DNA of 41,142 nt from Pseudomonadota bacterium (lineage in GTDB: Bacteria; Planctomycetota; UBA8108; UBA1146): NCBI GenBank assembly GCA_017859655.1, contig JAFMMO010000007.1:1-41142 (forward strand), in the 5' to 3' direction. Each line of letters opens with the position of its first letter. Position 1 is the first letter of the stretch. Below the pieces are notes generated by a model. That model worked only from the letters and a program-made list of their open reading frames with translations, did not search any database and was not told where the DNA came from. Of this stretch, positions 14,014 to 31,575 are shown one piece after another. A program made the translations under genes and the position numbers.

Positions 14014-14051
14014 CGTCACCCTTGAAGACCACCCTGAGGAGGACCGAGACG

Positions 14052-15353
14052 ATGCAGCCCCCCCTCTCCCGACCTCTCCTGATCGCGCTCCCGCTCGCCG
14101 TGATCGCCCTGATCGCTCTCCTGCCCTGGTGCGCCGACCGCCTCCCGGTGGCGAGCGGGGCGGCTCAGGACGGCGCAGAGGGGTGCTGTGAGGCCGCTGG
14201 GGAGAAGGAGCCCGCCGGGGACGGCTGCTGCGCGGAGGAGCCGAAGAGCGACGATGAGAAGCCCCCCTGCTGCCCGACCGCGGAAGAGGCGGGCCCCTCC
14301 TCGGAGCGGACCGTCACCATCGAGGAGATTCCCGATGTTCGGGTGGTCGATCAGGACGGGGTGGAGCACTCCTTCCGGACCGATCTGGTGGCGGACCGGA
14401 CGGTGGTCATCAACTTCTTCTTCACCACCTGCAAGACGATCTGCCCGCCTCTCACCGCCACCTTCGCCAAGGTCCAGCAGGAGCTGGGCCCGGAGCTCGG
14501 TGACGGCGTGCGTCTCCTCTCCATCAGCGTCGATCCCACCAATGACCGTCCCGCCCGCCTGAAGCGCTTCGCCCGGACCTTCGGCGCGGCGGAGGGATGG
14601 AGCTTCCTGACCGGGGAGAAGCAGACGATCGACCGCCTGCTCGTCGCGCTGGGGTCCGCCACGCCGGACAAGTTCGACCACACTCCCATGGTCCTCGTCG
14701 GCAACCTCGCCACAGGCGAGTGGCGGCGGACCTACGGGCTCGCCCCCGCCTCGGAGATCGCGGAGGTCGTTCGCGGGGTCCACGCCCGCGCTCAGGTCGG
14801 GATCGAGTCGCGCCTCGCGAAGGACTACTTCCCCAACCGCCCGCTGATCGATCAGCACGGCACGCCAGTCCGTTTCTACGAGGATCTGCTGCAGGGGCGG
14901 ACCGTCGTCCTTCATGTGATGTTCACGCGCTGCACGAGCATCTGCCCCCCCATGCTCACGAACATCTCCAAGGTGGCGGAGCTCCTGGGAGATCGCCTCG
15001 GAGAGCGGGTCCAGATCCTGAGCCTGACCGTGGACCCGGAGTTCGACACGCCGGAGAAGCTCCGGGAGTACTCCCTCGCCTTCGGCTCCCGGGAAGGTTG
15101 GCGGTTCCTCACCGGCGATCGTGAGGATGTCCGGGCTGTCCTGCAGAAGCTGGGGGCCTGGGTCGATGATCCCGAGGCGCACAACGCCTGGCTCATCGTC
15201 GGGAACGAGGCGACGGGGGATTGGCGGAAGGTGCTCGCCACCTCGCCGCCGATGCAGATCACCCACCTCGTCCGGTCGATCCTCGGAGAGGGAGACGCGC
15301 TGGAATCCCCATCGGAGCCGAGAGAGCTGGAGACCAGCAAGTCCAACCCCTGA
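14052..15353 (+). CDS. Tandem SCO1/SenC-domain copper-chaperone-like protein with Cys-Cys ladder
   Basis: A 433-residue protein from ATG 14052 (GAGGAGG at 14036-14042). It begins with a membrane-anchor or signal segment (LLIALPLAVIALIALLPW). A linker with three adjacent Cys pairs follows, at residues 45-46, 59-60 and 73-74, spaced exactly 14 residues apart. Two SCO/SenC thioredoxin-fold domains come next. Domain 1 (about 95-250) has FFTTCKTICPP with Cys127/Cys131 and the ligand His210 in FDHTPMVLV. Domain 2 (about 270-415) has FTRCTSICPP with Cys294/Cys298 and a His377 in EAHNAWLIVG. SCO proteins deliver copper to cytochrome oxidase CuA or act as thiol oxidoreductases; both domains keep the CxxxC and a histidine, so both may be active. 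Two SCO domains in one chain are uncommon. The next gene downstream on the same strand is the TGA-containing DUF1573 gene. Confidence 0.9.
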   Translation: MQPPLSRPLLIALPLAVIALIALLPWCADRLPVASGAAQDGAEGCCEAAGEKEPAGDGCCAEEPKSDDEKPPCCPTAEEAGPSSERTVTIEEIPDVRVVDQDGVEHSFRTDLVADRTVVINFFFTTCKTICPPLTATFAKVQQELGPELGDGVRLLSISVDPTNDRPARLKRFARTFGAAEGWSFLTGEKQTIDRLLVALGSATPDKFDHTPMVLVGNLATGEWRRTYGLAPASEIAEVVRGVHARAQVGIESRLAKDYFPNRPLIDQHGTPVRFYEDLLQGRTVVLHVMFTRCTSICPPMLTNISKVAELLGDRLGERVQILSLTVDPEFDTPEKLREYSLAFGSREGWRFLTGDREDVRAVLQKLGAWVDDPEAHNAWLIVGNEATGDWRKVLATSPPMQITHLVRSILGEGDALESPSEPRELETSKSNP

Positions 15354-15354
15354 A

Positions 15355-15381
15355 AAGAGTTGAGTGTCCTTCTCGACTCTT
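15355..15381 (+). terminator. Possible hairpin terminator after the SCO gene
   Basis: AAGAGTTGAG (15355-15364) pairs with CTCGACTCTT (15372-15381) through ten pairs, one a wobble, with a seven-base loop directly after the stop codon. There is no long T-run, so termination may be partial. Confidence 0.45.
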
Positions 15382-15612
15382 CTGCCGACTCCTCGTTACC
15401 GAACATCCCCCTCAGGGTGGTACTCTTCCACAGCGTCGATTCCTGAAGGTGGGTCCGCCCCGCGCGGACACCGTCGACGCCGCGTCCGCCCCTCCCGCCC
15501 GGGGTTTCGCCGGTGCGGGAGCCCCGTCCCCTCCTCCGCTCCCGGCGGGGTGAGGCGGGGCTCGGAGGGTGTGGAGGCCGGAAGACCAGTCCCAGAGTTC
15601 CCTGGAGGCCTC

Positions 15613-16743
15613 GTGATCCCATCGATCCCGAACCGACCGTCCCGCGGAGTCTCACCGAGGCTCTCGCTCTCCGCTCTCCTCGCCGCCTGCTTCCTGCTCC
15701 TCGGTGCGACCCTGGTCGCCCCGGTCTCCGCGCAGGATGATCCGCCCGTCCTCGGACCGAAGCTCCGCGTGGACTCGCCGAGTCACGATTGGGGGAAGCT
15801 GATCAAGGGTGAGAGCCACGAGCACGTCTTCATCGTGCGCAATGTCGGAAGCGAGACCCTGCTCATCGAGCGGATCAAGTCGACCTGAGGCTGCTCCGCG
15901 GCCGAGTTCGACCGCGAGATCGCTCCCGGCGGGAGCGGTGAAGTCACCGTCAAACTGAACACCGAGAAGATGAACGGCGCCGGGGTCAAGAAGTCGGTGC
16001 AGATCATCAGCAACGACACCTCCGCTCCGGAGTTCTCCCTCGATCTCACCGGGGACATTCTCTCGGTGCTCGAGGTGGACTCGAAGCTGCGCAAGGTGGA
16101 GCTGCGTGGACTCGCCGGGACCGAGCTGGTCTCCGAGTTCGTCCTCAAGCAGGGGTCGCACCTCGAGGTGGAGATCCTCGAGTCCGAGGTCTCGAGCGGG
16201 AATGCGCGGGTCGATCGCTTCGAGCCCGTGGAGGGAGAGCCCGGGTCCTGGAGCGTTCGCCTCGTCGCGGACGCGGTGGATCGCCCTCTCATCTTCAATG
16301 AGAAGTTCAAGATCGCCGTTCGGACCAGCGACGGGCAGGAGCGGGAAGTGAGCTTCCCCTTCCGGGTCGAGCACAACGCGAGGGTGCAGGCGACCCCCAA
16401 GGGGCAGCTCAAGTTCATTCCTCGCGAGATCGCGAAGCTCTACGGCCCCAATCCGCAGCCGATCAGTCGGGCTGTCCTCCTGAACGCCGGCGGGGAAGGG
16501 ATCCGCTTCAATGTCCTCGAGGTGCGCCTCGATGAGAATCTCGAGGGAGTGGTCAAGACCGAGGTCACGGAGCAGCGCCCGGGAGAGCAGTTCGCGGTGC
16601 ATGTCCGGATCGAGGAGTGGCAGGAGAAGCGCCAGATGATCGGTCGCATGACGATCGTCACGGATGATCCCGAGTGCGGGGAGATCTCCCTCTGGGTGAT
16701 GGCCCTCTTCACTCCGCCCGACGGCGGAGGTGGCTCCCGCTGA
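15613..16743 (+). CDS. DUF1573 family protein, candidate selenoprotein (in-frame TGA at codon 92)
   Basis: Read through one TGA at 15886-15888, this is a 376-residue secreted protein from GTG 15613 (GGAGG at 15604-15608; signal peptide LLAACFLLLGATLVAPVSAQ). Residues about 54-145 are the DUF1573 (PF07610) beta-sandwich: SHDWGKLIKGESHEHVFIVR, then NVGSETLLIERIKST, TGA, then GCSAAEFDREIAPGGSGEVT. DUF1573 proteins carry a highly conserved S[ST]CGC[TS] motif here, and the TGA falls exactly on its first Cys. The frame stays open for 284 codons after the TGA with the same codon usage, and family similarity is continuous, so selenocysteine at residue 92 is more likely than decay. Residues 146-376 form further beta-rich domains (VFQ-type repeats with RVEHNARVQA and VTDDPECGEISLWV). 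Standard gene finders would split it, giving a 91-residue stub and a false start at 15970. The remaining Cys94 would pair with Sec92 as a U-G-C redox motif. The alternative is a C-to-A nonsense mutation. Confidence 0.78.
15886..15937 (+). other. Candidate bacterial SECIS hairpins directly after the in-frame TGA
   Basis: Two hairpins follow the TGA. The first pairs CGCGG (15897-15901) with CCGCG (15912-15916), then a one-by-one mismatch, then two more pairs closing on AGTT. The loop starts 16 bases after the TGA and has G in its second position, in line with known bacterial SECIS rules (loop about 16-37 bases downstream, G among its first two bases). The second is a perfect seven-pair stem CGCTCCC/GGGAGCG (15921-15937) with loop GGC, about 39 bases downstream, slightly far. 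Either could recruit SelB; folding energies were not computed. Confidence 0.5.
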
Positions 16744-17393: not shown

Positions 17394-17972
17394 TCAGGCG
17401 CCGATCTCCGTGCCCGCGAGCTGGAGAACCTTGGCGGCCAGGTCGCTCGGGGTGAACGGCTTGGGGAGGAACTCGTCCGCGCCGAGGCGGATCGCCTTGT
17501 GCAGGTCCTCCTCGGGGAGGGCGGAGATCACGAGGATCTTGGTGGTCCGCAGCTCGGGGCTGAGGCGGACATGCTCGATGACCTCGTAACCGGAGACGCC
17601 CGGCATGTTGAGATCGACGGTCATCACGCACGGCAGGTGCTCCCGGAGCAGGCTGCCCGCCTGGAAGCCGTCGTCCGCGGAGTACGCCTCGAAGTCGTGG
17701 GTCCGCAGGATGCGCTGGATCATGCGGGTGACCTCCTGGTCGTCGTCGATGATCAGCACCTTGCGAGCGAGGTGAAGGAAGTCGCGCGGGATCGGGATCT
17801 GGTTCTCACGAAGGAACGCGATGAAGTTGTGGACCTCGACGCGATTGTCCCCGCGACCCGGAAGCTGGTAGGCGCGGAGCTGCCCCCGCTGAATCCAGCG
17901 GATCACCGTGCGGAAGTTCACTCCGCAGTAGTCGGCGATCTCTCCCGTGGTGAGAGTTCTCTTGTGTTTCAT
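17394..17972 (-). CDS. Response regulator with N-terminal excisionase-like HTH and C-terminal receiver domain
   Basis: A 192-residue protein from ATG 17972. The frame is open for 80 more codons upstream, but that part is low-complexity and the HTH begins right after this Met. Residues 5-58 form a MerR/excisionase-type DNA-binding domain (LTTGEIADYCGVNFRTVIRW, then RGQLRAYQLPGRGDNRVEVH). Residues 70-189 form a complete receiver domain: acidic pair Asp76/Asp77 (VLIIDDDQEV), phospho-acceptor Asp120 (TVDLNMPGVSGYE), Ser150 (LVISALPEED) and Lys171 (FLPKPF). In most response regulators the receiver comes first; here the order is reversed. It acts in the cytoplasm and probably binds DNA according to phosphorylation by a histidine kinase not present in this window, so it is an orphan here. 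A promoter zone with two inverted repeats lies about 400 bases upstream. Confidence 0.9.
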   Translation of the reverse strand: MKHKRTLTTGEIADYCGVNFRTVIRWIQRGQLRAYQLPGRGDNRVEVHNFIAFLRENQIPIPRDFLHLARKVLIIDDDQEVTRMIQRILRTHDFEAYSADDGFQAGSLLREHLPCVMTVDLNMPGVSGYEVIEHVRLSPELRTTKILVISALPEEDLHKAIRLGADEFLPKPFTPSDLAAKVLQLAGTEIGA

Positions 17973-18575
17973 GAGGCCGTGCTCCAGTTCACCGGAGTTC
18001 TTGGGCTCCCTGGGGAGCCCGGGATGGTCGGCTTCGCCCGCGTCGTCGTCGGCAGCGACGGTCTCCGCGATCTCACGACGGAAGGGGAGTCTCGGAAGGG
18101 GACTCGGACTTCCGCGCCCGCCTCCCGCTCCACGCAGGAACGGAGGGGGCTCGCACCCAGTCGGCCTCTTGGGTCCGACGGTGAGTTTCTCGGAGCGCTG
18201 GCTTGAAGCCAAGGATTGCCTTGGGAGCGTCGAGCACTCTCAAGGGGGATGATACACACTCCCGCGGGCAGAGGACCGTGGTGTCTGCGTCCCCGGGCGG
18301 AGCCCGAGGACAGTTCCGGGCGGCTCGTCGCCCAGAGGGATGGTCTCGCAGGTTGTCCTAAACAACCGCGAGGCAAGTCCCGACTTGTCCCGCGCGAATG
18401 TCAATATTTTACCGCGTGGGTGAGTTTGGACTACCCTTGAACTGGATACTCTTCGTCAGTTCCGGCCCTGTCGCCCTATCCTGCCATTCAAGAGCTCAGG
18501 GCGGTCATCCGTTCAGGGAGCGGGGTCGGGGAGGGGAGTATTCAATTCAGGGATTGTGCGGAGTGTGTCGAGGGT
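17973..18575. other. 603-base gap upstream of the response regulator
   Basis: The gap lies between two minus-strand genes. Bases 17973-18250 are GC-rich, without a convincing gene or ribosome binding site. Bases 18351-18475 hold two inverted repeats and an A+T-rich stretch that look regulatory. No RNA gene is recognised. Confidence 0.5.
18351..18411 (-). promoter_or_regulatory. Candidate promoter with two inverted repeats for the response regulator
   Basis: On the minus strand TAAAAT at 18411-18406 matches five of six -10 positions, without a good -35. Just downstream lie two perfect dyads: CAAGTC-CC-GACTTG (18374-18387) and GGTTGT-CCTAA-ACAACC (18351-18367). They would sit in the first 50 bases of the transcript, fitting operator sites or leader hairpins. 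Confidence 0.35.
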
Positions 18576-22825: not shown

Positions 22826-22863
22826 TCCCGACCCCGGTCCCCGGGAACGTGTCCGGATCGCCT

Positions 22864-22897
22864 CCGTTCCCACCGGCCTCGCGGCCGGTGGGAACGG
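22864..22897 (+). terminator. 15-pair hairpin between the two He_PIG genes
   Basis: CCGTTCCCACCGGCC (22864-22878) pairs perfectly with GGCCGGTGGGAACGG (22883-22897) around TCGC. No T-run follows, so it may be a terminator, a partial attenuator that sets the ratio of the two genes, or an RNA-stability element. Confidence 0.6.
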
Positions 22898-22962
22898 TGG
22901 GCGAGACGTCCCTCGGTCCGGCCCTCCGCTCAGACTCCACTGACTCCCCCTGGAGGAGAACC

Positions 22963-25900
22963 ATGTCCGGCTTCCGCGCCTCGATTCCGACTCAACTGAC
23001 TCGCGCGATCGTCCTCGCCCTCCTGACCATTGTCGGGTGCAACAACGGTGGGGGAGGATCTTCGGTCACCGCACCGACGGGGCTCTCCTATCCGATCCCG
23101 GCGCCCTTCGTCGTCGGTGAGGTGGTCTCCCCGCTCCAGCCCGCGCTCGGAGGCGGCTCCGCGTCCCTCTACGAGGTCGCGCCGGAGCTGCCCGGTGGTC
23201 TTGAGCTCGATGCCGCGACCGGGGAGCTCTCCGGAGTGCCGACCGAGGTCACCCCGACCGCGGACTACACGATCACCGCCTCGAACTCCCTCGGCTCCAC
23301 CGACTTCGTCCTCCAGTTGACGGTCAACCCTCCCGCTCCGTGCGGACTCTCCTACAGCGAGCCCGTGGCGGCCTATCCGGTGGGGGAGGCCATCGCGCCG
23401 AACACGGCGTCGGTCGGCTGTGGCGCGGTGGAGACCTGGACGATCACCCCCGCCCTTCCGGACGGGCTCTCCCTGGATCCGCTCACCGGTGAGATCTCCG
23501 GAACTCCGACTGCGGTCGTCGCGACGACGATCCACACGGTCGTCGCCTCGAACATCACCGGCGCGGACAGCTTCGACCTCGAGATCACCGTGAACCCCGA
23601 GGTCCCCTGCGGCCTCGCCTTCACCGATCCGGCCCCCACCTACAACGTCAACACGCCCATCGCCCCGAACGCGGGCTCCAGTGCCTGCGGACCGGTCGCC
23701 GCCTGGGCGGTCGATCCGGCGCTCCCCGCCGGCCTCGTCCTCGATGCCCAGACCGGGATCATCACCGGGAGCCCCCTCGCGGTCCTCGCTCCGACCGTCT
23801 TCACGGTCACCGGATCGAACGCCTCGGGGAGCGCGAGCATCGACCTCCTCATCGAGATCCTCCCCGAGGTCACCACGGGGATCACCTACGGTGACACCGC
23901 GCCGACCTACATCCGGGGGATCGCGATCACCCCGAACGCCCCGAGCATCTCGGGTGGAGCCCCGAGCGACTGGAGCGTGGATCCGGCCCTGCCCGGCGGC
24001 CTCCTGCTCGATCCGTCCACGGGGGTCATCTCCGGGACCCCGGACCAGATCACCGCGACCCTCGACCACGTGATCACCGGGAGCAACGCCGCCGGCAGCC
24101 TCAGCACCACGATCTCGATCACCATCGCGCCCCAGGCCCCCTGCAACCTGAGCTACACGAGCACCGACGCCGTCTACCTCCAGGGGATGCCGATCACCGC
24201 CAACATCCTCGATTGGGGCTGCGACGCGCCGGACGCGATCGTCATCTCCCCCGCGCTGCCCGCCGGCCTCTCGCTCGACCCCGCCACGGGGACGATCTCC
24301 GGGACCCCGGCGGACGTCACCCCGACGACCACGCACACCGTGACCGCGAGCAACGCCACCGGCAGCGAGAGCATCGCCGTGACGATCACGGTGAACCCTC
24401 AGGCGCCGTGCAACCTCGGCTATGACGCCGAGGTGGTCACCTACCTCGCCGGTCTGCCGATCGCCCCGAACTCGCCGGCCTTGGGCTGCGGACCGGCGGC
24501 GCAGTTCGCGGTCAGCCCCGCCCTCCCGGCCGGGCTCGACCTCGACGCAGCCACCGGAGTGATCACGGGAGTGCCGACCGTGGTGGCGCCCGCCTCCACC
24601 CACACCGTCTCCGCGATCAATGTCACCGGTTCGGCCAGCGTCATCCTCGAGATCCGGATCGATCCGCAGGCGCCCTCGAACCTCTCGTACTCCGAGCCGA
24701 GCCCCGTCTACCAGCTGGACCTCCCCATCACGGCGAACACGCCGAGCGCCTCGGGCGGAGCGGTCGACGGCTTCGCGATCACGCCGGGCCTCCCGACGGG
24801 ACTCACCCTCGACCCGGTCACCGGGGTGATCTCGGGGACGCCGACCGTCCTCGTCGGCCCGACGCTTCACACGATCACCGCCACGAACGTGACCGGCTCC
24901 GCCGCCACGACCATCCTGGTCGAGATCGTGCCGCAGCCCCCCTGCTCCCTCGCCTACGGGGATGCGACGCCGGTCCTCCTGCTCGACATGCCGTCCGCGC
25001 CCAACCCGGCGAGCTTCGCCTGCGGCACGCCGGATCTGTGGGAGATCACGCCGGCCCTGCCCGCCGGACTCCAGCTCGACCCCGTCAGCGGGACGATCAG
25101 CGGGACGCCGACGGAGCTGCTCCCGACGACAACCTTCTTCGTCACCGCCACGAACGACACGGGGAGCTCGAGCGTCTCGATCATCCTCACGGTCAACCCG
25201 CAGGCCCCCTGCGATCTCACCTACGCGTTCCCGAGCTCGCTGTACCTCGCGGGGATCCAGATCCCCGTGAACCCCCCGAGCTGGGGCTGCGGCGATCCGG
25301 CCAGCTTCACCGTCAGTCCGCCGCTCCCGGCGGGACTGCTCCTCCACCCCGCGACCGGGGTCATCTCCGGCACCCCGAGCCTGCCGACCGGAGCTTCGAC
25401 CCACACCATCACCGCCTCGAACGTGACCGGGAGCGACTCCTTCCAGCTCTCGATCGCGGTCGACCCGCAGGCCCCCTGCGACTTCGAGTACGCTTCGGCG
25501 AGCCGGACCTACGTCATCGGCACGGCGAGCGCCGCGAACATCCCGAGCTGGGGCTGCGGCGACCCGCAGGGCTTCTCGGTGACGCCGCCCCTGCCGGCCG
25601 GCCTCTCCATCGACCCCGTCAGCGGAGCGGTGCTCGGCATCCCGACCGAGCTCCAGGAGCTCACCGTCCACATGATCACCGCCACGAACGTCACGGGGAC
25701 CGACACCACGACCATCGCGATCACCGTGAACCCGGAGGCGCCCTGCGCCCTGACCTACGCCGACCTGACGCCGATCTACGTCGTCGGCAGCGGCATCGCC
25801 CCGAACTCCGCCAGCTTCGCCTGCGGCCCGCCGGACCTTTACACGATCTCGCCCCCGCTCCCCGCCGGCCTCATGATCAGCGCCGCCACGGGGCAGATCT

Positions 25901-28900
25901 CCGGGATCCCGACCGAGATCGTCCCCGCCGCGATCTACACGGTCACCGGGACGAACCCGACCGGCAGCGACTCGGTGGACCTGCTCATCACCGTGAACCC
26001 GAAGGCCCCCTGCGACATCGCCTACTCGGATGAGACCGCGGTCTACCTCGTGGGGACGCCGATCGCGGCGAACCTCCCGAGCTGGAGCTGCGGCGACCCG
26101 GAGAGCTGGACGATCACTCCGGCCCTGCCGAACGGGCTCCTCCTCGATGCGTCCACCGGGGCCATCACGGGGACCCCGGCGGTCGTCAGTCCGCTCACCG
26201 ACTACACCGTCACCGCGACGAACGTGACCGGGAGCGACTCCCGCGTCTTCTCGATCCAGGTGAACCCCCAGGGGCCCTGCGGGCTCGCCTATCCCGACCC
26301 GAGCCCGCTCTACACCCAGAACGTCCCGATCACGCCGAACGTCCCGACCACCTCGTGCGGCACGCCGACCGGCTGGATCGTCACCCCCGCCCTCCCGGCC
26401 GGGCTCCAGCTCGATGCGATGACCGGAGTGGTCAGCGGCACCCCGACGATCCTCGTCGAGGACTCCGTTCACGTGGTCGCCGCCTCGAACATCACCGGCA
26501 CCGAGACCTTCACCCTGACGATCACCGTCCAGGAGCAGGCTCCCTGCAACCTGCAGTACACCTTCATGGCGCCGACCTACCATGTCGGCACCGCGATCGG
26601 CGCGAACGTGCCGAGCTGGGGCTGCGGAGTGCCGGGGAGCTTCTCGGTCAGCCCGGCCCTCCCGGCCGGTCTCTCCCTCCATCCCGTCACCGGGATCCTC
26701 ACGGGGACCCCCCTCGCCCTCGTCCCGACGACAGACTTCGTCGTGAGCGCGGCGAACCTCACGGGCAGCGCGGAGGCGATCCTCACGATCACCGTGAGCG
26801 ATCCGCCGCCTTGCAGCGTCGCCTACCCGTCGGCGAACGCGGTCTACGAGCAGGGTCTCCCGATCACTCCGAACATGCCGAGCTGGGCGTGCGGGGATCC
26901 GGAGTCCTGGTCGATCGCCCCGGCGCTCCCCGCCGGACTCGCCCTCGATCCGCTCACCGGGGTCATCAGCGGCACGCCGCTCGATCTCCTGCCCCCGACC
27001 CTCTTCCTCGTGACCGCGGAGAACGTCTCCGGCGAGGACAAGGTTCAGATCTCCATCGAGGTGGTGGAGGCCGCGCCGTGCGCCCTCTCCTACGCCGACA
27101 ACCCCGTCACCTACCAGATGGGGCTGGCGATCACGCCGAACCCGGCTTCCCACGGCTGCGGCGCCGCGGACTCCTTCACCGTGACCCCCGCCCTCCCCGC
27201 CGGACTCCTCCTCGATCCGCTCACCGGTGAGATCTCCGGGACGCCGACGACCCTCGCCGCGAGCACGGTCCACACCATCACGGCCTCGAACGGGACCGGC
27301 AGCTCGAGCACCGACCTCGTCATCGAGGTCGTCCCGCAGCCGCCCTGCGGCATCGCCTATGACGCCTCCGCCTCGATCTACCTCCTCGGAGACACGATCA
27401 CCCCGAACCTCGCGAGCTTCTCCTGCGGGGCCCCGGAGAGCTGGTCGATCAGCCCGCCCCTCCCGCTCGGCCTCACCCTCGACGCGACGACCGGCGCGAT
27501 CAGCGGGGCTCCCCTCGCGCTCGCCGCCGCCACCGACCACACGATCACCGCGGTGAACGTCACCGGTCAGGACTCGACCGTGATCTCGATCGCGGTCCAC
27601 CCCCAGGCCCCGGCCGGGCTTTCCTACGGAGACGCCGCCCCGGTCTACGTCGAGGGGATCGCCATCGCCGCCAATGAGCCGAGCTCGACCGGCGGAGCGA
27701 TCGATGCCTTCTCCGTCACCCCCGCGCTCCCGGTCGGGCTCGCCCTCGATCCCGCCACCGGCGCGATCAGCGGGACCCCCGGAGCGGTGCAGGGCGCCGT
27801 CGCCTACACGATCACCGCCAGCAACATCACCGGCTCGACCGACGCGACGGTCACGATCACCGTCAACCCGCCGGCCCCGGCCGACCTCGCCTACGGCGAG
27901 GCCGCCCCGATCTACCTGCTCGGGGACGCGATCGTCCCGAACGCTCCCACCTCCTCCGGGGGGCCGGTGACGGCGTACTCGATCGATCCGGCCCTCCCGG
28001 CCGGACTCCTCCTCGACCCGACGACCGGCGTGATCAGCGGGACCCCCGCCGAGCTCGCCCCGACCACCGCGCACACCGTCACCGCCTCCAACGTGACCGG
28101 CTCCGCCACCGCGACGATCATGGTCACCGTGAACCCGCAGGGCACCGGCACGCTGACCTACACCGACCCGGCGCCGACCTACCTCCGCGGGGTCGCGATC
28201 ACTCCGAACGCTCCGATCTTCGGCGGCGGCACCCCGGACAGCTTCTCGATCTCCCCGCCGCTGCCCGCCGGACTGCAGATCGACCCGCTCTCGGGCGTGA
28301 TCTCCGGCACCCCGACCGTCCTCCAGGCGGCCACGCTCCACACCGTGACCGCCTCGAACGTGACCGGCTCCGCCAGCGCGACGATCATGATCACGGTCAA
28401 CCCGCAGGCTCCGAGCGGCCTCATGTACCGCGAGCTGGTCTCCCTCTACCTCGTGGGTGACGCGATCGTCCCGAACACCCCGACCGTCAACGGGGATGTC
28501 GATGCCTTCAGCGTCGCGCCCGCCCTGCCCGCGGGGCTGAGCATCGACGCGCAGACGGGGGCGATCTCCGGAGTCCCGACCGCGATCACGGCCGCCGCGA
28601 CCTACACGGTGACCGCCTCCAACATCACCGGCTCCAACTCGGTGAACATCGTGATCACCGTCGATCCCCAGGCCCCGGCCGGGCTCACCTACCCCGAGCT
28701 CTCGCCGACCTACCTCCTCGACCTCGCGATCACCCCGAACGCCCCGAGCTCCACCGGCGGTCCGATCGCCGCCTTCGGGATCGCGCCCGCCCTGCCGGCG
28801 GGGCTCTCTCTCGACCCGTCGACCGGAGTCATCTCGGGCACGCCGACCACGCTCCACGCGACGACCGTCCACACGGTCACGGCGACGAACGTCACCGGCG

Positions 28901-31575
28901 CGACCACCGTCGACATCGCGATCACGGTGAACCCCCAGGCTCCGTCGGGGCTCTCCTACTCCGCGCCGAGCGCGGTCTACCTCCTCGACCTCGCGATCAC
29001 GCCGAACAGCCCCTCCGCGGGCGGCGGCGCGATCGATGCGTTCGCGATCACCCCGGCGCTCCCCGCCGGACTCGCCCTCGACCCGGTCACCGGAGTCATC
29101 TCCGGGGTCCCGACCGCGCTGCAGGCCGCGACGACCCACACCGTGACGGCGACGAACGTCACCGGCACCGCCACGGCCGAGGTCGTGATCACGGTCGATC
29201 CGCAGGCGCCCGCCGGCCTCACCTACGGCGAGCTCGCCCCGACCTACGTGGTCGGGACCGCCATCGGCGCGAACCTCCCGTCGGTCGGAGGAGGGGAGGT
29301 CGCCGGGTTCTCGGTGGCCCCCGCCCTGCCCGCCGGTCTCCAGCTCGATCCGCTCACCGGCGGGATCACGGGGACGCCGACCACCATCACCGCCGTGGCG
29401 ACCTACACGGTGACCGCGTCGAACGTGACCGGCTCCTCGAGCGTCGACCTCGTGATCACCGTGAACCCGGCCGCGCCGGCGGGCCTCGCCTACGGCGAGA
29501 CCGCGCCGACCTACCTGCTCGGCGACGCGATCACCCCGAACCTCCCGACCTCCACCGGCGGTCCGATCGCCGGCTTCACGATCTCCCCGGCCCTCCCGGC
29601 CGGCCTCGCGCTCGACCCCACCAGCGGGGCGATCACGGGGACGCCCGCCGCCCTCCACGCGACGCGGACCCACACGATCACCGGCTCCAACGTGACCGGC
29701 TCGACCTCCGCGTCGATCACCATCACCGTGAACCCGCAGGCTCCGATCGGCCTGACCTACACCGAGCTGTCCCCGACCTACATCACGGGCAGCGCGATCA
29801 CGCCGAACCTGGCCGCGGTCACCGGTGATGTGGACACCTTCACGGTCGTCCCGGCCCTCCCGGCCGGCCTGACCCTCGACCCCGCCACCGGGATCATCCT
29901 CGGGACCCCGTCGGCGGACACGCCGCAGGCGATCTACACGGTCACCGCGACGAACGTCACCGGGACCTCCTCGGTGGACCTCACCATCACGGTGAATCCG
30001 CCCGCCCCGGTCTCCGTCGCGTACCCGGCGGTCAACTCCACCTACCTGCTCGGCGTCGAGATCACTCCGAACGTCCCCGTGATCTCGGGGGGCACCCCCA
30101 CGAGCTGGGTGGTGAACCCCGCCCTCCCGGCGGGCCTCGCCATGGATCCGGCGACGGGAGTCATCACCGGGACGCCGACCGTCGTGCAGAACGCGGGGAT
30201 CTTCGTGATCAACGCCGCCAACGTGACGGGGAGCGCCTCGACGATCCTGATCATCGCGGTGGAGAACCCCGCCCCCTGCGGCCTCGCCTATCCGATCCCG
30301 AGCCTGGCGCTCCTGACGGCCACTCCGCTCCCGCCCCAGGTCCCGACCGTCGGGTGTGGCGTCGCGGACAGCTTCGCGATCTCCCCGGCCCTGCCGGCCG
30401 GACTGACCCTCGACCCGGCCACGGGAGCGATCCAGGGCACTCCGACCACGCCCGCTCCCTCGACCATCCACACCGTCACGGCGACGAACGGGTTCGGGAG
30501 CGACAGCGCGCAGCTGGTCATCTCCGTGGCCCTCACCCCGCCGACCGATGTCGACTTCGGCGCCACCGCCTTCGACTTCGTCGTGGGTGATCCGATCACG
30601 CCGATCACGCCGACCGCCGCCGGCGGCCCGGTCGACGGCTGGTCGGTCTCCCCCGGGCTCCCCTCCGGGCTCACCCTCGACGGGATGACCGGGACGATCT
30701 CCGGCACCCCGACCATCGTGGATGCCGGGGCGACCTATCTCGTCTCCGCCTCGAACTCCGCGGGCAGCGCCCAGCAGGCCCTGACGATCCGGGTCGTGAC
30801 GAACGCTCCCTGCGAAATGGCCTACTCCGAGCCTCTCGCCGTGTACCCGGTCGGTCACGAGATCGCGCCGAACACGCCCATCGTTGGCTGCGGCGGCGCG
30901 ACGAGCTTCACGATCGACCCGGTGCTCGCCACCGGGCTGGCCTTCGACGCCGGCACGGGTGTGATCTCCGGCGCGCCGCTCCTGCGGACCGGGCGGATGC
31001 TGCACACCGTCACGGCGACGAACGCGTTCGGCAGCACGACGGCCACGGTCGAGATCCAGACCTCGCCCCGCTACACCTATGACGCGCCCGACACCACCGT
31101 CACCCTCGACGCGACGGGAGCGGGGAGCTTCACCCTCCCGCTCACCATTGACGAGGATGTGCCTGCGAGCGCGTCCCCGACCGAGGCGGTCGGGCTCTCC
31201 GTCGCCCTCGCCTTCGATCCCGCCCTGCTCCAGCTCAGCGCGGTCACGCAGGGACCGGGACTCCTCGACCTCAACGGGGTGGACTACTTCTACCCCGGCC
31301 TGAACAACATCGACGGGCAGCTGACGATCGGCGTGATCATCAGCTTCTCCTTCACGAAGGTGCTCGTGGTGCCGGATCCGACCGTGTTCGCCGTGGCGGA
31401 CTTCGAGGTCCCGGCCGCCGGTGCTCCCACGCAGACGACAGAAACCTCGATGACCTGGGCGAACCTCGTCGGTTCGCCTCCGGTCGACAATCTGGTGGTC
31501 CTCGACGGCTCCGCGGGTGGGGGGATCCAACCGCTCTTCGAGGCTCCGACGATCACGATCGTGCCGACCCCCTGA
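22963..31575 (+). CDS. Giant He_PIG tandem-repeat lipoprotein (2870 residues) with cohesin-like C-terminus
   Basis: It starts at ATG 22963 with GGAGGAGA just upstream. The leader ends TIVGC with lipid Cys26, followed by a flexible NNGGGGSS linker, so the protein should be tethered to a membrane and exposed. Residues 37-2700 are 30 tandem He_PIG repeats of about 89 residues, each built as AP.GL.Y...PTYL.G..I.PN.P, then LPAGL.LDP.TG.I.GTP and HTVTASNVTGS....I.I.VNPQ. Sixteen repeats carry two cysteines (APC near the start, CG about 30 residues later); fourteen carry neither. Residues about 2700-2870 are a cohesin-like beta-sandwich (VGLSVALAFDPALLQLSAVT, then DGQLTIGVIISFSF). Such rods can span several hundred angstroms if each module is about 35-40 (inference). 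No enzyme domain is seen; a stalk, adhesin or scaffold is most likely. A UUCG-loop terminator follows. Confidence 0.92.
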   Translation: MSGFRASIPTQLTRAIVLALLTIVGCNNGGGGSSVTAPTGLSYPIPAPFVVGEVVSPLQPALGGGSASLYEVAPELPGGLELDAATGELSGVPTEVTPTADYTITASNSLGSTDFVLQLTVNPPAPCGLSYSEPVAAYPVGEAIAPNTASVGCGAVETWTITPALPDGLSLDPLTGEISGTPTAVVATTIHTVVASNITGADSFDLEITVNPEVPCGLAFTDPAPTYNVNTPIAPNAGSSACGPVAAWAVDPALPAGLVLDAQTGIITGSPLAVLAPTVFTVTGSNASGSASIDLLIEILPEVTTGITYGDTAPTYIRGIAITPNAPSISGGAPSDWSVDPALPGGLLLDPSTGVISGTPDQITATLDHVITGSNAAGSLSTTISITIAPQAPCNLSYTSTDAVYLQGMPITANILDWGCDAPDAIVISPALPAGLSLDPATGTISGTPADVTPTTTHTVTASNATGSESIAVTITVNPQAPCNLGYDAEVVTYLAGLPIAPNSPALGCGPAAQFAVSPALPAGLDLDAATGVITGVPTVVAPASTHTVSAINVTGSASVILEIRIDPQAPSNLSYSEPSPVYQLDLPITANTPSASGGAVDGFAITPGLPTGLTLDPVTGVISGTPTVLVGPTLHTITATNVTGSAATTILVEIVPQPPCSLAYGDATPVLLLDMPSAPNPASFACGTPDLWEITPALPAGLQLDPVSGTISGTPTELLPTTTFFVTATNDTGSSSVSIILTVNPQAPCDLTYAFPSSLYLAGIQIPVNPPSWGCGDPASFTVSPPLPAGLLLHPATGVISGTPSLPTGASTHTITASNVTGSDSFQLSIAVDPQAPCDFEYASASRTYVIGTASAANIPSWGCGDPQGFSVTPPLPAGLSIDPVSGAVLGIPTELQELTVHMITATNVTGTDTTTIAITVNPEAPCALTYADLTPIYVVGSGIAPNSASFACGPPDLYTISPPLPAGLMISAATGQISGIPTEIVPAAIYTVTGTNPTGSDSVDLLITVNPKAPCDIAYSDETAVYLVGTPIAANLPSWSCGDPESWTITPALPNGLLLDASTGAITGTPAVVSPLTDYTVTATNVTGSDSRVFSIQVNPQGPCGLAYPDPSPLYTQNVPITPNVPTTSCGTPTGWIVTPALPAGLQLDAMTGVVSGTPTILVEDSVHVVAASNITGTETFTLTITVQEQAPCNLQYTFMAPTYHVGTAIGANVPSWGCGVPGSFSVSPALPAGLSLHPVTGILTGTPLALVPTTDFVVSAANLTGSAEAILTITVSDPPPCSVAYPSANAVYEQGLPITPNMPSWACGDPESWSIAPALPAGLALDPLTGVISGTPLDLLPPTLFLVTAENVSGEDKVQISIEVVEAAPCALSYADNPVTYQMGLAITPNPASHGCGAADSFTVTPALPAGLLLDPLTGEISGTPTTLAASTVHTITASNGTGSSSTDLVIEVVPQPPCGIAYDASASIYLLGDTITPNLASFSCGAPESWSISPPLPLGLTLDATTGAISGAPLALAAATDHTITAVNVTGQDSTVISIAVHPQAPAGLSYGDAAPVYVEGIAIAANEPSSTGGAIDAFSVTPALPVGLALDPATGAISGTPGAVQGAVAYTITASNITGSTDATVTITVNPPAPADLAYGEAAPIYLLGDAIVPNAPTSSGGPVTAYSIDPALPAGLLLDPTTGVISGTPAELAPTTAHTVTASNVTGSATATIMVTVNPQGTGTLTYTDPAPTYLRGVAITPNAPIFGGGTPDSFSISPPLPAGLQIDPLSGVISGTPTVLQAATLHTVTASNVTGSASATIMITVNPQAPSGLMYRELVSLYLVGDAIVPNTPTVNGDVDAFSVAPALPAGLSIDAQTGAISGVPTAITAAATYTVTASNITGSNSVNIVITVDPQAPAGLTYPELSPTYLLDLAITPNAPSSTGGPIAAFGIAPALPAGLSLDPSTGVISGTPTTLHATTVHTVTATNVTGATTVDIAITVNPQAPSGLSYSAPSAVYLLDLAITPNSPSAGGGAIDAFAITPALPAGLALDPVTGVISGVPTALQAATTHTVTATNVTGTATAEVVITVDPQAPAGLTYGELAPTYVVGTAIGANLPSVGGGEVAGFSVAPALPAGLQLDPLTGGITGTPTTITAVATYTVTASNVTGSSSVDLVITVNPAAPAGLAYGETAPTYLLGDAITPNLPTSTGGPIAGFTISPALPAGLALDPTSGAITGTPAALHATRTHTITGSNVTGSTSASITITVNPQAPIGLTYTELSPTYITGSAITPNLAAVTGDVDTFTVVPALPAGLTLDPATGIILGTPSADTPQAIYTVTATNVTGTSSVDLTITVNPPAPVSVAYPAVNSTYLLGVEITPNVPVISGGTPTSWVVNPALPAGLAMDPATGVITGTPTVVQNAGIFVINAANVTGSASTILIIAVENPAPCGLAYPIPSLALLTATPLPPQVPTVGCGVADSFAISPALPAGLTLDPATGAIQGTPTTPAPSTIHTVTATNGFGSDSAQLVISVALTPPTDVDFGATAFDFVVGDPITPITPTAAGGPVDGWSVSPGLPSGLTLDGMTGTISGTPTIVDAGATYLVSASNSAGSAQQALTIRVVTNAPCEMAYSEPLAVYPVGHEIAPNTPIVGCGGATSFTIDPVLATGLAFDAGTGVISGAPLLRTGRMLHTVTATNAFGSTTATVEIQTSPRYTYDAPDTTVTLDATGAGSFTLPLTIDEDVPASASPTEAVGLSVALAFDPALLQLSAVTQGPGLLDLNGVDYFYPGLNNIDGQLTIGVIISFSFTKVLVVPDPTVFAVADFEVPAAGAPTQTTETSMTWANLVGSPPVDNLVVLDGSAGGGIQPLFEAPTITIVPTP
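23071..31062 (+). repeat. 30 tandem coding repeats of about 266 bases (He_PIG modules)
   Basis: The repeats average 266 bases and are clearly homologous but diverged. Repeats 8-17 (24937-27606) all have the Cys pair, repeats 18-27 (27607-about 30267) all lack it, and 1-7 and 28-30 are mixed. The nucleotide similarity makes the array prone to unequal recombination and to assembly collapse. Confidence 0.9.

Follow-up and report, generated by a model that had tools for sequence, protein, structure and literature searches.

A planctomycete DUF1573 gene whose in-frame UGA is very probably decoded as selenocysteine, with a candidate SECIS hairpin 39 nt downstream

The gene at 15613–16743 of the window (the whole 41,142-nt stretch of DNA analysed here) contains an in-frame UGA that is very probably decoded as selenocysteine (Sec). 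Conservation of this codon was observed directly; its decoding is the reading favoured by sequence comparison. The kind of selenoprotein is already known, and a distant hairpin, with its loop 39 nt past the UGA, may be new. The window is contig C125 of the host genome (G000), a 3.5 Mb draft that is 90% complete.

The in-frame TGA and its conservation

The reading frame starts with GTG and ends with TGA at 16741–16743. Its sole internal stop is the TGA at codon 92, around which the translation reads IKST-U-GCSAAEF. The gene has the following features.

15613–16743, + strand: DUF1573 (OS_HP2-type) selenoprotein gene, 376 aa with Sec92, as judged by the frame, PF07610, NF041425 and a structure model
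15886–15888, + strand: in-frame TGA, very probably read as Sec (U92 of U-G-C), as judged by the frame, relatives and alignment
15604–15608, + strand: GGAGG, Shine-Dalgarno-like, 4 nt 5' of the GTG start, read directly
15766–16056, + strand: DUF1573 domain (PF07610), continuous over the TGA, from a profile match

The Pfam search gave 69.3 bits for PF07610 against a gathering cut-off of 26.1, and the match (residues 52–148) covered the Sec site. An earlier, sequence-only reading had placed the TGA on the first Cys of the CGC motif of DUF1573, leaving UGC. This placement held, since PF07610 spans the site and the TGA column is Cys in every non-TGA row of a 30-row alignment.

We searched 59 genomes (the host's own and relatives) with the read-through protein and aligned each match to residue 92. 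Among the matches listed in an NF041425 survey of 392 Planctomycetota genomes, TGA occupied this site in at least 28 loci of at least 16 genomes; the further matches among those listed, to about E 9e-17, had no internal TGA. The TGA-bearing genomes were 15 of the 16 in family f1 (all except G007) and one genome of a sister family, G016. Each of the 28 loci had only that single internal stop. They comprised clade A, with the motif STUGC or GTUGC (the window gene and 14 orthologues, 35–54% identical to the window protein), clade B, with KPGUGC (12 loci, about 28–34% identical to it), and the G016 gene (L056 3298–4518), which reads KPGUSC, that is, U-S-C where the others have U-G-C. Non-TGA matches covering the residue-92 column had Cys, in one case (L058) one residue off. 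The earlier reading had proposed this comparison as a check, and relatives indeed align across the site with Cys or TGA, several genomes sharing the TGA. The protein set excluded near-copies and matches that began after query residue 100 or stopped before 300; in the 30-row alignment, 10 columns, including C92 and C94, were invariant and 17 further columns were nearly so. The host genome encodes four other DUF1573 proteins, all Cys-type, three with CGC and one with CSC (the last at L003 755–1021, contig C91). G007, from the genus of G005 and G009, has selA, selB and selD, and neither Sec-DUF1573 clade was found in its draft.

Past the TGA, differences at codon positions 1/2/3 numbered 19/9/127 between L018 and L022, 17/16/90 between L021 and L023, and 105/66/152 between the window gene and L015 (279 codons each), and 95/60/169 between L049 and L052 (334 codons). 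The differences concentrated at third positions in all four pairs, indicating that the part past the TGA is selected as protein.

The TGA could instead come from a nonsense mutation or a fault in the assembly, or be a programmed stop that yields two separate proteins. Mechanical ORF calling does split the gene, giving 15364–15888 (174 aa) and 15970–16743 (257 aa), as the earlier reading had foreseen for ordinary annotation; plain ORF calling splits Sec-DUF1573 genes. However, the identical site carries TGA in at least 28 loci of at least 16 assemblies, as the sole internal stop in each, purifying selection continues past it, and C94 and the adjoining G are conserved. We consider decay or error very improbable. 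The earlier reading had named a TGA in this strain alone, together with decay, as the picture that would speak against Sec; what we found was a TGA shared across the family with downstream codons under selection. An open frame alone would also speak for a general code change, with UGA standing for an ordinary amino acid throughout the lineage. Against this, the gene itself terminates in TGA, as do its orthologues L021, L023, L025 and L028, and the genome has a tRNA-Sec with a TCA anticodon plus Sec genes, so that the probability of a code change is close to nil. The frame, the shared TGA site, the TGA ends of the orthologues and the selection past the TGA led us to reject a pseudogene, an assembly error and a code change.

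The earlier reading had also asked for selA, selB, selD and tRNA-Sec in the host, and all four were found in its own genome.

C269:8300–9661: selA (506.7 bits)
C269:9793–10722: selD, with an in-frame TGA of its own (364.3 bits)
C269:13654–13747: tRNA-Sec (68.4 bits; called by ARAGORN as tRNA-SeC, anticodon tca)
C135:2135–4018: selB (349.3 bits)

With the shared site and the selection past it, this machinery bore out the Sec reading. Among the relatives searched, selA was present in 27 of 30 genomes, selD was above cut-off in 14 of the 16 family genomes, and selB in 16 of 17, with only a below-cut-off match in G012. Two genomes with TGA genes and selB, G001 and G002, gave no selA and no convincing selD in drafts that are 91% and 82% complete. 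All 14 above-cut-off selD matches contained an in-frame TGA; in the host copy on C269, locus L072, this TGA is near 1533.

A 57-row tree required three changes for the Sec form, at least two of them forced by well-supported branches: support was 100/100 for clade A (13 rows) and 97/93 for clade B (12 rows). The G016 gene stood apart on a long branch, and the program warns of long-branch joins. L029, one of the rows, duplicates part of the L056 Cys gene. The tree is compatible with either gain or loss of Sec and does not tell the two apart.

Relation to described DUF1573 selenoproteins

The earlier reading had supposed that the family might be undescribed. This did not stand: DUF1573 selenoproteins with a UGC motif appear in PMC9312934, PMC13188914 and PMC2398784 and as NCBIfam NF041425. 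The tables of PMC9312934 and PMC13188914 list a DUF1573 selenoprotein with the motif UGC, citing a 2007 study of Olavius symbionts, and the survey data of a 2008 ocean study (PMC2398784) give OS_HP2, pfam07610, with UxC, as two selenoproteins in two samples beside 354 Cys homologues. OS_HP2, attributed to Zhang and Gladyshev (2007) in those two tables, shares with the window protein PF07610 and a UGC motif in which Sec replaces the first Cys, and the UGC or CGC motif of the tables is present in the window protein and its alignment. In both OS_HP2 and the window family, Cys homologues are commoner than Sec forms.

NF041425, named OS_HP2 family (seleno)protein, matched the window protein over nearly its full-length domain with 98.0 bits (E 3e-28), 2 bits short of its cut-off of 100. 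Above-cut-off matches occurred in 3 of the 392 genomes, and none of the 28 TGA loci (best 97.0) was among them. The window family thus differs from the OS_HP2 profile in scoring under this cut-off, and in having two paralogous Sec lines within one planctomycete family. The Cys-type DUF1573 proteins have the same domain and motif position as the window protein; they differ in having Cys for Sec and, among the 32 homologues compared, in showing the distal hairpin described below at chance frequency.

The main text of a planctomycete genome paper on selenoproteins, in its relevant passages, does not name DUF1573. The lineage spread, the duplication and the 39-nt spacing were not found in the relevant passages of the literature searched, which included PMC9312934, PMC13188914, PMC2398784, PMC4807772 and PMC1794560. 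A rarely reported selenoprotein becomes a trait of nearly all genomes compared in one planctomycete family, most of them with two paralogues.

Hairpins 3' of the UGA and the SECIS question

The RNA just 3' of the UGA is predicted to fold into two hairpins and probably directs the recoding. The proximal hairpin spans +12 to +31, and the G-rich loop of the distal one begins 39 nt past the UGA.

15897–15916, + strand: hairpin 1, proximal; loop AGUU 16 nt past the UGA, one C.A mismatch in the stem; from fold and covariation
15919–15939, + strand: hairpin 2 (distal), a candidate SECIS; 9 pairs close the apical loop GGC, 15928–15930, 39 nt past the UGA

The minimum-energy fold of the window holds both hairpins together, hairpin 1 having −11.5 kcal/mol. 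We would place SelB more readily on the distal hairpin; its structure comes from codon-choice and pairing tests, and SelB binding there is a prediction. That this hairpin is the SECIS is our tentative preference, held at a little under even weight.

The Figure 2 legend of a 2026 review (PMC13188914) describes a bacterial SECIS with a 3–9 nt loop, a 4–16 bp upper stem, a G within the first two loop positions, a UGA-to-loop distance of 16–37 nt and a free energy of at most −7.5 kcal/mol; according to the same review, some putative elements fall outside the model. We tested for it with our own implementation rather than bSECISearch, and used synonymous shuffles as controls, drawing codons first from one pool of all sites and then from each gene itself (for 3 of the 59 sites a whole-gene codon set was lacking and the codons came from the short stretch). 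The 27 distinct TGA sites represent the 28 loci, one locus being identical to another over 180 nt; these genes are related, so the counts below are not independent. One of the 32 non-TGA sites, L058, shows ACC at the aligned codon because of its one-residue shift.

With an unbroken 4-bp stem, the published model fitted 3 of the 27 TGA genes, the window gene not among them, against a shuffle expectation of 6.4–10.9; it fitted 10–15 of the 32 non-TGA homologues, exceeding the TGA genes. Allowing one stem mismatch raised the count to 6 of 27, the window gene being included through hairpin 1. An Rfam gathering search of the window gave no match.

A hairpin with a G loop at 38–41 nt was present in all 27 TGA genes and reached −7.5 kcal/mol or lower in 26, whereas the expectation was 9.8 with pooled codons and 8.4 with own codons. 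Non-TGA homologues had such a hairpin at −7.5 kcal/mol in 8 of 32 cases, for an expected 8.6–8.7, and at 42–45 nt none of the 27 TGA genes reached this energy. The distal loop started 39 nt past the UGA in 26 TGA genes and 40 nt past it in G016, with a G in the first two bases. In 25 of the 27 TGA genes, but in just 1 of the 32 others, a loop at exactly 39 nt was closed by a stem of at least 4 bp. In a further test, region 4–39 alone separated TGA genes from the others weakly (mean z −1.01 vs −0.50), and region 7–60 separated them clearly (−2.24 vs −0.29), one Cys gene reaching −2.62. In a dinucleotide shuffle of the window alone, the fold was unremarkable (z −1.44).

Pairing was examined on alignment A3, which comprises 23 of the 27 TGA sites, without that of G016 and without rows that duplicate another over 63 nt. 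Hairpin 2 had 87.4% of its cells paired, against 57.5–71.0% when it was slid by 1–3 columns, and RNAalifold retained it alone. Two-sided changes occurred in 4 of its 9 pairs, yet these amounted to just 7 of 207 cells. One slid control (0.158 at −3) exceeded the covariation score of hairpin 2, 0.143. Hairpin 1 showed two-sided changes in 6 of 7 pairs across the 23 sequences and scored 0.328, where its slid controls reached no more than 0.189.

This covariation is one of the points in favour of an alternative in which the proximal hairpin at 15897–15916 is the SECIS, and the distal one has some other role or results from the codons chosen at a conserved Pro-Gly-Gly turn. In the window, hairpin 1 fits the published model with its one mismatch. 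A loop starting with G at 10–15 nt, at −7.5 kcal/mol, occurred in 11 of the 27 TGA genes where 4.8 were expected. Pro-Gly-Gly lies at the distal loop in 26 of the 27 TGA genes and in 4 of the 32 others, so that the protein sequence itself favours the distal hairpin; this tripeptide can be either the cause of the hairpin or its result. On the other side, the register and loop of hairpin 1 vary between clades, clade B having a different register, and 12 of the 15 clade-A genes have no hairpin that fits the model even with a mismatch allowed. The distal spacing of 39 nt, meanwhile, is kept in 26 of the 27 genes, above what their own amino acids and codons predict. A proximal SECIS is a serious possibility, though one that we rather doubt.

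Returning to the distal hairpin, it resembles the standard bacterial SECIS, as modelled in that legend of PMC13188914, in its short stem, its low free energy and an apical loop that opens with G. It differs in lying at 39–40 nt rather than 16–37 nt and in having the proximal hairpin between it and the UGA; the comparison of these planctomycete genes is with the published spacing model. Both hairpins could act as one element, with SelB on the distal G loop and the intervening hairpin shortening the path to the ribosome, an arrangement to which we give slightly less than an even chance. If true, it would be a distinct class missed by spacing-limited searches; related selenoproteins may then be under-annotated, and the result suggests that the accepted bacterial spacing rule may be too narrow. 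In selD of these genomes, an ordinary SECIS-like hairpin with a GGUCG or GUC loop was found 26–27 nt past the UGA in 9 motif-matched loci of 14 inspected; one SelB would therefore serve both spacings, provided that the distal reading is right.

A scan of the host genome for TGA-N36-CCCGGNGGG gave 17 sites, among which, by eye, the window site alone was a real coding frame; so narrow a pattern reveals little of the remaining selenoproteome.

Predicted fold, neighbouring genes and possible function

An AlphaFold2 model built with 30 sequences had a mean pLDDT of 89.6 and a pTM of 0.73. It shows a helix at residues 20–31, followed by beta strands with one short helix, and UGC lies between strands 83–90 and 94–99. 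The helix reads as a signal or anchor, and the modelled strands appear to form three Ig-like domains, with UGC in the first. PF22544 (HYDIN/CFA65/VesB-like Ig) matched with 48.3 bits. In line with this, the best 16 Foldseek matches were ciliary central-apparatus chains at 9–15% identity; the best 50 had TM-scores by query length of 0.18–0.32. These scores are low, and the ciliary similarity is therefore a match at the level of domains: the window protein shares the HYDIN/CFA65/VesB-like Ig domain and has no link to cilia. By sequence, the sole solved relative at E 0.01 was 2qsv, in which the aligned segment lacks the CGC motif.

The protein is probably exported, with tandem Ig-like domains, and its Sec-Gly-Cys most probably cycles as a selenenylsulfide, forming a redox centre that would lie at the cytoplasmic membrane or beyond it. 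Such an extracytoplasmic thiol/selenol redox protein is a reasonably probable prediction, based on the motif, the Cys homologues and the helix that resembles a signal. A CXC motif can mimic disulfide isomerase. To our knowledge, no activity is known for DUF1573.

Genes on both sides of the selenoprotein gene were compared with the loci of relatives.

14022–15353, + strand: two SCO1/SenC stretches in one protein, a CxxxC in each; from Pfam and locus comparison
17394–18212, − strand: HTH_17 response regulator; 12 of 14 relatives' loci carry similar sequence in the corresponding position

The main rival to the redox role is a UGC/CGC site that binds copper or another soft metal and does not carry out thiol-disulfide exchange; within the genus, the adjacent double SCO1/SenC protein could be its partner. 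A SCO1/SenC gene lies directly upstream in G000 and G001, and 11 of 13 clade-A proteins share a third Cys, located 39 residues N-terminal to Sec. That Cys is absent from the window protein, as it is from L015, and the remaining 13 of the 15 clade-A loci compared have no SCO match beside the selenoprotein gene; in two of them (L086 and L084) Pfam identifies the upstream gene as a large cadherin/Big_9 protein. We hold metal binding to be unlikely. Upstream in the window there are also two proteins with a MauG-type di-haem peroxidase domain, one adjoining 14022–15353, and the SCO and MauG genes together were common to the G001 locus alone among 14 relatives' loci. With these neighbours limited to G000 and G001, the SCO link is observed within the genus alone. 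A copper-chaperone operon made up with the SCO1/SenC and MauG neighbours was rejected, as SCO lies beside the gene in just 2 of the 15 clade-A loci.

On the downstream side, the response-regulator match was found via an opposite-strand frame, and Pfam identified the gene as such both in the window and at L086; a beta-helix gene has similar sequence in 11 of the 14 relatives' loci.

Some further observations concern the proteins of this region. The SCO1/SenC stretches of 14022–15353 read TTCKTIC and TRCTSIC, and the protein has a Cys-rich N-terminal tail (GCC, GCC, PCC). The third Cys of the clade-A proteins could lie near U and C. At 22849–31575, the window encodes a 2908-aa protein with 29 putative Ig (He_PIG) stretches, and the opposite strand carries a 2866-aa open frame across nearly the entire span.
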